Below are positions 15,977 to 19,195 of a stretch of DNA of 64,000 nt, one piece after another. Within the stretch, counting starts at the first letter, position 1; every line of letters starts with the position of its first letter. This stretch comes from Mariannaea sp. PMI_226 (taxonomy: Eukaryota > Ascomycota > Sordariomycetes > Hypocreales > Nectriaceae). The notes beneath the pieces were generated by a model. It worked only from the letters and a program-made list of their open reading frames with translations, ran no database searches and was not told where the DNA came from. A program made the translations under genes and the position numbers. Location of the stretch: assembly GCA_024336345.1 (NCBI GenBank), contig JANFOG010000011.1, positions 682,001 through 746,000 on the forward strand, read 5' to 3'.

Positions 15977-18900
15977 ATGGCTCGTCCAGACCCGATTGCG
16001 TCTGGACGCGAGAGGAAGATCCGTTCAGTTATTGGTCCGCCCTCCCCTTCCACAGTTTATTTGTTCCTGCTGACAGAGGAAATCGAAAAAGATTTTGCCG
16101 ATGACCTTCTCACGAAACTGCCCGTCTTACTCGACAATAGCTCGACTGAAACCCTCCTCGCCGATGTCAATCATCATATCCACACCGTCAACTCTCTTCC
16201 CCAAAAGGCTAAATGCATATCACCTCAGATGGCGAAAGATCTCAAGGATCGTGGAAGGAAGCTATGGAATGGCTGTATCAGGGAAAAGAGGGTGCATACT
16301 GATTCTTCGATTTCGGTGGCGAGGCCAAGGCTGTTCGTTAGGGTCAGGTTGCTCGCCTTCCTGATCCACGTGTTGGCGCGGGAGATTTACAACACCCAGA
16401 AGAACGAGGTCGGTACCGATGAGCATGTCATATACCTACTGAACTTGGCATTGGTTGTTGGAAGAGTTTGTATCGAGGGTTCAGATCTTGACGGGGCGCG
16501 CCTGGGACTACACAAGGTAGCTGACTATGTCGAGAGGCTGAAGGCAATGGATGAGCAAAGAACTCATCGAGATGATATAGCGATGACGAAGAGGTTTGAG
16601 GCAGATTACTTGACAATGAGGATGGCTTTGGTAAGCCAAATTCCTTGATATTGCATCAGAGATATCACTGAAACAAGAATAAATCCATAGGCATGGAAAG
16701 AAGATCGACTCGACGTCGCGGAACACATGTATTCAAAGGCAGAAGCACTTCGTCATTACTCGGATCCCTTGTCAGCTGAACATATGGCTGACACTCTGCA
16801 ACACATTGGGAGTGACCTCGCTTCTAAAAGTGATCACAAGATGGCGTTGAAATGGCTCCGACGCGCCTATGAGTTGATCAACAGCCAGGAGATAGAACAG
16901 CTCTCCAGCCAGAGCCTAAACCTACGCCTAGCAATCTGTCACGACCTCATCCAAGTGCTCCTAACAGTTGGTTCCCCTGAGTGTATCCAAGAAGCCGAAG
17001 ACTTAGTTACCTACGTCGAGTCTGAAATTGGTGACAAGCCCGTCGTATTACACTGGAGACTTGAACTATTACAAAAATCACCAGGAGAGGCGTTTGATAC
17101 CGATGCTTGCGCCAGCATCCTGCGACGTATGATCCGATCCATAGATTTTTCAGATGCTGTCCTCGGATTTCTACTTCACAATATCAAACAAATCCGGGAT
17201 AGAAGCTCCCAGTTGGCGATTGGCCTTCTCGATGAGCTCCTTCTGACGAAGTTGCTGATATTCAAGAACGTAGAATGGATTGGGAAAGCTCTTGTGCATC
17301 GAGTTTGGATGAGCACCGTGGAAACCGAATATTCTGAAGGAGTCAATAATCTATCTGCTCTTTTTGATCGAGTTCCTCTCGAGTCTGATAATTTGTTGAA
17401 AACAGATGTTACTGTTGCGGTCCAATCGGTAGGTCTGATGCAGGGTAGGTGAGGCAAACTTGAGGCTAACTCAGCTAAGCTCATATGGAAGAAGATAGAA
17501 GCTGTCTGCACTAAGAAACAGTATAATATTGCGGCACAATGGTGCCAACTGGGCCTTCATCCAATATTTTCTAACTGCGGTGAGGCAAATAAAGGGAAGC
17601 TAGGGAGAAAGTTCATCACATGTGCAATGAACTGCGGCAATGTTGATGTCGCCAAATCCACGTTTGAAGCAATGTCGACCACTGTTCGAGATAACCCACT
17701 GACCAGATATCTAATGTTCAAGGTCTCTCTCATTGGATGGGACCATGAATTAGGTTGCGAGTGCATCGACAAGCTGAGCAGATGCTCTGACAAGGAAAAA
17801 AGCCGAGACATTCTTTACGCCTGCGTCCGAGAGGCACAGCAAGTTGGAGACAGACTATGTACTCTGGTTGCTTTGAAGGCTGTTACAGAGAGGTGTGGTT
17901 CAGAAACCGCTCCAACTGCTCATTTACCTTGTATCATGCGTTGCGCCATTCGATTAATTCATCTGATCGAGAATCAGGAAGAGGAGGGCTCGAATAATGG
18001 TCCTGGGTTAACGGAGGATACATGCCAGATATTTGAGAAAGGTGGGTTTTTATTTGTTTTCTCAAGTTCACAAGTGATTATAGCTTACATGAGTAGCTGC
18101 TGAATATGCAAGATCGGATCCTAGAGATTCGGAAAATGGTAAAATATTTACTCTACCAGAGCTGGAGTGGTTTCGAAAGAACGCATACAACATTGGTGTG
18201 AAAAAATGCCATGTCTAGGACCTGTGTCATTTGATTCGAATATTCAATTCTTGCCTTGGGTTTATGAATTGCTACCCGGATGATATTCCGTCAGGAGAGA
18301 GACATGATATCCAATACATGGTGATGCGCTGCCACTTTATCGTGTCAGCGGGTCTTGTCTCACAGGCCCGAGCAGAGGACAAGATCGAAGAGCAATTTCA
18401 GCGTTATGTTGAGATGCGACGACATATCGCAGCCTTCGATACCGCATTAGAGAGTGCACTTCTGGAGGAATCACGATCGGGGGACGAACGCATCCTGAAG
18501 GACATGCGTGCTAAAGCTGCAACACTCTTTGTTTTCGATTTTGAGGGCGCCGTTTGTCTCAGGAGCTGGGACGAACTAAGTCAAATTGTCAGAAAAGCAA
18601 AGATTTGCAAAGATGAATCAATGTATAAGGCTATTGGGGACTGTTTATTAAGAAGTCATGCTCCAGGAAATGGTGAGACAGTATCCCTAAAATGCTGAAC
18701 TTTGGATGGGCAAGCATGGCTAACACCCTTTTGGTATTGGCAGTGCTATATGCGACGATGCGTCTAATTATCAATGAAATATTTGAGCTGGAGGATTTTG
18801 ATATCCTGAGGCTGGCAAAGTATCTTCGGTGTTTGTTCCAGGCTACCCTGCCACTTGACGATGAGGTGGCATTGCAAGTCGTCGAGCAAACACTGCAGAT

Positions 18901-19195
18901 TGCTCGCGAGGGAAACCAAGTGCGTACAAACCTGCATCGCCTGAATTCCTGAAGTCCGGCTGACGTTAATTTATAGATGAATCGGCCGCTACCTACCGAC
19001 GAACTCGACTGGGTAGTTGCCACGACCTTCAATCATGCAATCGACATTCTTGCACGCGGCGATGGAGCACTTTGTCACCGGTGGGCGCTCAAGGCCCTGG
19101 ATTTGGCGGAATATATGGATGATAACGGCTACATGCAAAATATCATCCGAGAAAGAGTTGCCAAGTTGGGGTTGATGAACAAGAATAAAGAGTAG
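15977..19195 (+). CDS. ZIP4: meiotic crossover protein Spo22/Zip4, interrupted by one in-frame TAG
   Basis: TPR-like helical protein of the SPO22/ZIP4 family, a ZMM scaffold that links the synaptonemal complex to crossover sites in meiosis. Exons: 15977-16630, 16691-17428, 17480-18041, 18097-18672, 18744-18919, 18977-19195; all introns GT-AG. The frame codes for 974 residues if codon 692 is read as an amino acid, close to the yeast length. Family segments include the N-terminal LLADVNHHIHTVNSLP, KWLRRAYELI, ELEWFRKNAYNIG and the C-terminal HRWALKALDLA. Codon 692 (18216-18218) is TAG, in a context (KKCHV-x-DLCHLIR) where relatives, as I recall them, have tryptophan. Without recoding the product stops at 691 aa and loses 282 conserved residues. 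No other frameshift or stop is seen, and splicing around the TAG does not keep frame. The first 30 or so residues are weakly conserved, so an extra upstream exon is possible. Confidence 0.85.
18210..18224 (+). other. in-frame UAG in a predicted hairpin loop (possible A-to-I editing site)
   Basis: 18213-18215 (GUC) pairs perfectly with 18219-18221 (GAC), leaving UAG as a three-base loop. After one U/C mismatch, CA (18210-18211) pairs with UG (18223-18224). The candidate adenosine is 18217, with U on its 5' side. Fungal sexual-stage A-to-I editing is reported to favour a 5' U and a hairpin-loop position. Editing would give UGG (Trp). No expression data are available here. Confidence 0.45.

Follow-up and report, generated by a model that had tools for sequence, protein, structure and literature searches.

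A TAG codon at a conserved tryptophan position of SPO22/ZIP4 in Mariannaea sp. PMI_226, very probably a restorative A-to-I editing site

The SPO22/ZIP4 gene of Mariannaea and its in-frame TAG

The locus described here raises the question of how a meiotic gene with one in-frame TAG codon could specify a full-length protein. It is located in the window that we analysed, a stretch of 64,000 nt on contig C3 (i.e., GenBank JANFOG010000011.1) of the 42.2-Mb genome of Mariannaea sp. PMI_226; Mariannaea is a genus of the Nectriaceae (Hypocreales). The gene extends from 15977 to 19195 on the plus strand, and its product matches the SPO22/ZIP4 family (Pfam PF08631) with 186.1 bits against a curated cut-off of 27.5 (E 1.1e-54), which bears out the earlier naming of the gene as meiotic Zip4. 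From the sequence comparisons given below, we consider it very probable that the TAG is a site where A-to-I editing of the mRNA restores a tryptophan codon.

The preliminary description of this DNA had joined six exons (15977-16630, 16691-17428, 17480-18041, 18097-18672, 18744-18919 and 18977-19195) into a frame of 975 codons, in which the only stops are codons 692 and 975. Its account of a TAG at 18216-18218 in the context KKCHV-stop-DLCHLIR, after 691 open codons and before 282 more, is exact in that frame. The codon number, 692, is valid for the uncorrected frame only. Residues 20-38 of the uncorrected model are missing from the deposited protein P0001, and each of these positions is a gap in 92-100% of the best 120 of 185 homologs, because a 57-nt in-frame intron was read through. 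In the corrected model of seven exons, the TAG is codon 673 of the 955 codons preceding the final stop, and the spliced frame is otherwise open, with no second lesion across these 955 codons. The window translation and P0001 are identical at 831 of 831 aligned residues. The features of the gene are as follows.

15977-16034, plus strand: SPO22/ZIP4 exon 1, with the start codon at 15977; the first 420 residues match P0001 exactly
16035-16091, plus strand: 57-nt intron (GTCCGC...AAG) missed in the uncorrected model; P0001 and 92-100% of homologs lack the corresponding residues
16092-16630, plus strand: exon 2 (joined frame)
16691-17428, plus strand: exon 3, with the bulk of the Pfam SPO22 domain (E 1.1e-54, profile 3-246 of 274)
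17429-17479, plus strand: 51-nt intron (GTAGGT...AAG) with a TGA that breaks the unspliced frame; the Pfam match restarts at 17480
17480-18041, plus strand: exon 4 (Pfam match, joined frame)
18097-18672, plus strand: exon 5, which holds the in-frame TAG (sequence, joined frame)
18216-18218, plus strand: in-frame TAG at a Trp codon; the predicted A-to-I site is the A at 18217 (sequence, homolog alignment)
18196-18294, plus strand: 99-nt in-frame "intron" of P0001 that removes the TAG; P0001 skips residues 686-718 (junction set by eye)
18744-18919, plus strand: exon 6 (joined frame)
18977-19195, plus strand: exon 7, with the normal stop (joined frame)

We judge the "intron" 18196-18294 of P0001 to be an annotation dodge around the TAG. 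Some deposited relatives combine SPO22 and a PF24990 domain in one model of 1156-1550 amino acids; these probably come from fusion with a neighbouring gene.

The TAG codon in homologous proteins

In all, 185 proteins matched SPO22, and the best 120 of them were aligned. At the column of the TAG codon, 54 of these 120 have a tryptophan, 66 have a gap and none has any other residue, so that Trp is the sole residue in all 54 homologs with a residue there, as the preliminary description had expected of relatives. In an alignment of 40 homologs, 26 columns are invariant; these 40 were picked for Trp at the TAG column, which makes the invariance of that particular column automatic. Amongst the nonsense changes that can arise in one step in the SPO22 coding sequence, TGG to TAG accounts for 13 of 380, or 13 of 76 when transitions only are considered.

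The gaps are distributed unevenly. No residue is found at the codon in 58 of 65 Nectriaceae rows versus eight of 55 other rows (best 120 of 185 homologs), all eight of the latter being from Trichoderma; the rows were sorted by hand from their names and those from the same species are not independent. P0002 was counted in the Nectriaceae from its position in the tree (see below), and the remaining genera by their usual family assignment. The frequency of gaps is itself unremarkable: 26 of 974 positions rank higher than the TAG column or tie with it.

More telling is where the deposited models break off. Eight of the best 120 proteins stop precisely ahead of the codon, those of Neonectria magnoliae, Cosmosporella sp., Fusarium duplospermum, F. 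lateritium, F. culmorum, F. heterosporum, F. poae and F. musae. Twelve others skip through the codon such that the end of the skip is the codon exactly (P0004, P0005, P0006, P0015, P0017, P0023, P0026, P0033, P0054, P0056, P0057 and P0079); for P0006 the skip end was assigned by eye, since the aligner had shifted three residues. The simplest reading of these skips is that TAG ends in AG and is, therefore, usable as a splice acceptor. The exact truncations and exact skips thus point to the same stop in Neonectria, Ilyonectria, Dactylonectria, Cosmosporella and several Fusarium species, as deduced from protein models and not from genomic DNA. The comparison of the codon between related species that the preliminary description had proposed hence favours a shared stop in several Nectriaceae. 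An edited stop would explain why, for 58 of 65 Nectriaceae proteins (best 120 of 185), the region is missing from the model or truncated in it.

We have scored only exact truncations and exact acceptors as stops. A skip alone was rejected as proof of a stop, because skipped models and models with Trp occur together in four Trichoderma species and because other columns are equally gapped.

The skips could also have a more literal meaning, namely, that an in-frame optional intron (e.g., 18196-18294) is truly spliced out so that the stop stays untranslated, or that editing and splicing both operate. P0001 drops 33 residues in frame, and eight Trichoderma models (P0083, P0084, P0087-P0089 and P0094-P0096) leave out an in-frame segment of 33 or 39 residues that surrounds the Trp. 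There is also a precedent in FgBUD14, in which the stop is reported to be edited as well as contained in an alternatively spliced intron. Against this, four of the same Trichoderma species have models that keep the Trp; the 66 gap rows (including truncated proteins and Trichoderma) show 38 different intervals, as expected for ad hoc dodges; and the removed residues are conserved, with the codon kept in 54 of the best 120 of 185 models. According to Liu et al. (2016; PMC4817773), moreover, RNA-seq identified the stop-holding regions of 69 F. graminearum genes as exons that had been misannotated as introns. We regard true splicing of the TAG region in Mariannaea, with or without editing, as improbable. 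A genuine optional intron around the Trp is possible in Trichoderma.

Sequence constraint and structure beyond the TAG

If the sequence downstream of the TAG had ceased to be translated, it should have become less constrained. The identity of the Mariannaea protein to 12 outgroups is 0.505 upstream and 0.572 downstream of the stop, a ratio of 1.13, which is normal though towards the low end of the 1.11 to 1.26 obtained for 17 Trp-bearing rows (each of the 12 outgroups being scored against the other 11). GC3 is 0.493 upstream versus 0.496 downstream. By these measures of sequence, the part beyond the TAG is not relaxed.

An AlphaFold model was built for the Tolypocladium ortholog P0008, not for the protein of the window. 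It is a helical solenoid, nearly all helix (mean pLDDT 87.6, pTM 0.60), in which the Trp is situated in a short turn preceding helix 695-710; truncation at this residue would, in the model, drop that helix and all following ones. A fold search with the Zip4 model returned assorted helical-repeat proteins with low TM scores, and no sequence match to the Zip4 protein was found in the PDB.

History of the codon

A tree was inferred from 56 hand-picked homologs of the 120 plus the window protein, over 740 columns from which the region of the site was excluded; it was made by a quick method that gave a long-branch warning. Of its rows, 21 were scored as stop and 14 as Trp; the remaining 22, with ambiguous skips, received no score. 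The history of the codon on this tree requires at least four changes. The outgroups have Trp, so the simplest account is one change to a stop near the base of the Nectriaceae and three returns to Trp. The stop thus appears to have arisen from a Trp codon near the base of the family and to have been kept in most of it, as far as the sequences indicate.

The apparent returns concern F. oxysporum, P0024 and P0002. Four F. oxysporum proteins with Trp (P0011, P0014, P0045 and P0048) are placed within the stop clade; a fifth, P0013, is off the tree. P0024 is named F. lateritium, yet it adjoins F. poae on the tree, and has Trp. P0002, the sister to Mariannaea on the tree, also has Trp at the codon. 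Its frame, on a contig of 4886 nt, has 1019 residues, is free of insertions at all of the intron sites and extends upstream of the expected start. P0002 resembles a spliced transcript, and its Trp could be genomic or edited.

A general loss of the stop in asexual species is unsupported: F. culmorum and F. poae, regarded as species without a known sexual stage, have proteins (P0101 and P0107) that end at the codon. In F. oxysporum, the RID model P0149 still has a skip near its own codon.

Editing machinery and other candidate targets in the genome

Tad2 and Tad3 both serve tRNA editing and are assumed to be present in Mariannaea. Ame1 is reported to be the sexual-stage activator of the Tad2-Tad3 deaminase, a DUF726 protein with an essential MV500-501 pair, its Ser and His being dispensable for editing. 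The genome has three DUF726 loci with six matches. The AME1 ortholog (649 amino acids, three exons) includes the required pair as M485-V486, and its G516 (replacing Ser), D574 and H614, like that pair, are each numbered 15 lower than the published MV500-501, S531, D589 and H629. The intron limits and exon joins of AME1 and PUK1 were chosen without RNA.

The PUK1 ortholog (L022, C12:4132500-4139500, minus strand) has TAGTAG at the published tandem site, which we read as being in kinase subdomain IX. In 120 rows, the two columns hold W 46 and 57 times and gaps 74 and 63 times, and nothing else. Tandem stops occur at the same site in F. graminearum PUK1, according to PMC4817773. A third in-frame TAG (ILTQFD-stop-YKSL) lies at a less constant column of PUK1, with W in 70 of 120 rows, including the nearest relative Thelonectria, other residues in 49 and one gap; judged from the alignment, it is a possible Mariannaea-specific editing site.

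The RID ortholog has one TAG, at codon 153, in a column with a conserved Trp (120 homologs: W 65, gap 49, other 6, i.e., N 5 and H 1, which look misaligned). RID is a published editing target (PMC11156358); the correspondence here is at the level of the gene. Each of the five in-frame stops studied in SPO22, RID and PUK1 is a TAG in a column in which Trp is found more often than any other residue, a count from a biased sample of the genome because RID, PUK1, AMA1 and a DCP1-like gene were picked as published targets. For AMA1, a TAA was found in the candidate gene, probably intronic. No second gene of the DCP1 type emerged as a further target: the one match was ordinary, without a stop.

Mating type, meiosis genes and the possibility of decay

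The preliminary description had suggested looking at mating-type genes. The mating-type region contains a split HMG-box match beside MAT1-2-1-like and APN2-like genes, identities that we presume from reading by eye, without a family search. A MAT1-2-1-like HMG gene is thus at hand; a genome search run without a positive control yielded no mating-type gene with an alpha box, and, because of this, PMI_226 is probably not self-fertile by itself. Some 1.2 kb from the MAT1-2-1-like HMG box lies another HMG-box frame, partial and between stops (L041, C19:1569478-1569594), which is possibly a MAT1-1-3-like gene or remnant.

With only a MAT1-2-type gene found in the strain, one could suppose that SPO22 is undergoing decay in a lineage that is asexual or sterile, the TAG being an ordinary nonsense mutation. 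Decay is hard to reconcile with 955 codons without another lesion, with normal constraint downstream, and with the same stop deduced for F. fujikuroi (P0023), a species we take to be fertile. Nor would decay lead one to expect only TAG among the five stops of the three genes SPO22, RID and PUK1, each at a position where Trp prevails. The genome also has matches to three further families: none of the six to MutS contains a stop, nor does the single, partial one to SPO11, and of the three to HORMA one spans stops, probably an intron. The alternative of decay or error offered in the preliminary description is, therefore, very unlikely, decay having only a slight chance of being correct. Even less credible is a sequencing or assembly error for a true TGG: the difference is a single base in a single assembly, but independent assemblies of other species yield proteins that terminate or splice exactly at the codon, and in Mariannaea itself further codons that are edited or Trp elsewhere read TAG.

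RNA context of the candidate site

With flanks of 10, 15 and 20 nt, the A at 18217 is in the middle of a three-base hairpin loop with a probability of 0.99, a value also reached by 21%, 9% and 5%, respectively, of 300 random TAGs from the plus strand of the window. The published hairpin test with 30-nt flanks is negative, the loop probability of 0.12-0.14 being below the background mean of 0.31 and reached by 47% of the 300 random TAGs; values at 25 and 40 nt are 0.35 and 0.18. We have dropped the short-flank hairpin as support for editing, given the negative outcome at 25, 30 and 40 nt. In contrast, the three PUK1 sites are in predicted loops when the flanks are 30 nt long (0.76-0.99). Such a loop is reported with 30-nt flanks for about 62% of known sites and is missing from over a third (PMC4817773); primary sequence, chiefly U at -1, is reported to outweigh structure. 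At the SPO22 site, the U at -1 follows from the codon being UAG; +1 G, +2 G and +3 A fit the published preferences, and -3 (U), -2 (C) and +4 (C) mismatch weak ones. Hairpin and neighbouring bases are neither strong support for editing nor a refutation of it.

How the TAG could be used

The proposal that UAG is converted to UGG by A-to-I editing, put forward in the preliminary description, finds support in the Trp column, the constraint downstream, the stop deduced for other Nectriaceae, the AME1 ortholog, the TAGs of PUK1 and RID and the F. graminearum ortholog. In vegetative cells, any SPO22 transcript would give a protein cut at codon 673, without the last 282 residues of helical repeats. 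In fruiting bodies, the Tad2-Tad3-Ame1 complex would deaminate the A of the UAG by the mechanism of F. graminearum, and the ribosome would read the edited codon as UGG (Trp), yielding full-length Zip4 for meiosis. Stop-correction editing of a core crossover gene may then extend well beyond F. graminearum, at the same codon from Neonectria to Fusarium.

Whether selection maintains the arrangement is another matter. The TAG might have been kept since the Nectriaceae ancestor as a translational lock that is opened only in fruiting bodies, an idea that we hold tentatively at most, because returns to Trp occur and because stops persist in some species regarded as asexual. Under such a lock, the RNA and not the DNA would carry the codon for the otherwise invariant Trp, a notion about which we are equally doubtful. 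If the lock were real, lineages that no longer use it could restore the Trp in the genome, as F. oxysporum apparently did. Returns to Trp in close sister lineages would make adaptive versus tolerated editing testable by comparison.

Comparison with known systems

In the openly licensed literature, RNA editing of SPO22/ZIP4 in ascomycetes was found only in Liu et al. (2016), and nothing was found that links Mariannaea with RNA editing or that treats Zip4 together with Ecm11, tetratricopeptides and the C-terminus; locus names, of which one is unverified, led to no further paper. According to that study, the F. graminearum SPO22 ortholog, FGRRES_01563, is one of the 69 genes edited from UAG to UGG in perithecia (PMC4817773), a record that the preliminary description had missed. 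The model of F. graminearum P0062 (FGSG_01563), which we equate with that gene because of its number, leaves out the surroundings of the codon (residues 685-727), and sequence comparison suggests that the edited site is the same codon as the Mariannaea TAG. FGRRES_01563 and Mariannaea SPO22 are orthologs with an in-frame UAG, for which automated models dodge the stop by a false intron; the editing is perithecium-specific and established by RNA-seq in the former and deduced from sequence in the latter.

PUK1 (FGRRES_01058) also has a premature UAG at a conserved Trp that is corrected by A-to-I editing in perithecia (PMC4817773). The Mariannaea ortholog shares the tandem stops and has an additional TAG where its nearest relative has Trp; unlike SPO22, PUK1 specifies a kinase and not a meiotic scaffold. 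CHE1 of F. graminearum resembles SPO22 in that its stop site is conserved among related species, and the CHE1 paper (PMC11169179) describes three kinds of annotation artefact around the conserved edited stop, two of which are seen in SPO22 models: the stop taken as the end, and a small false intron. It differs in being edited in vegetative hyphae and in not being a sexual-stage gene, according to the same text. FgRID and FgAMA1 are sexual-stage genes that require stop correction (PMC11156358), and Mariannaea RID, too, shows one TAG in place of a conserved Trp.

What is new here is the Mariannaea site, its probable spread in the Nectriaceae and the apparent returns to Trp; a 2024 study of restorative editing may cover the conservation. 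Editing of SPO22 itself is already known from F. graminearum, and the view of Mariannaea as a further case of this known mechanism is well supported.
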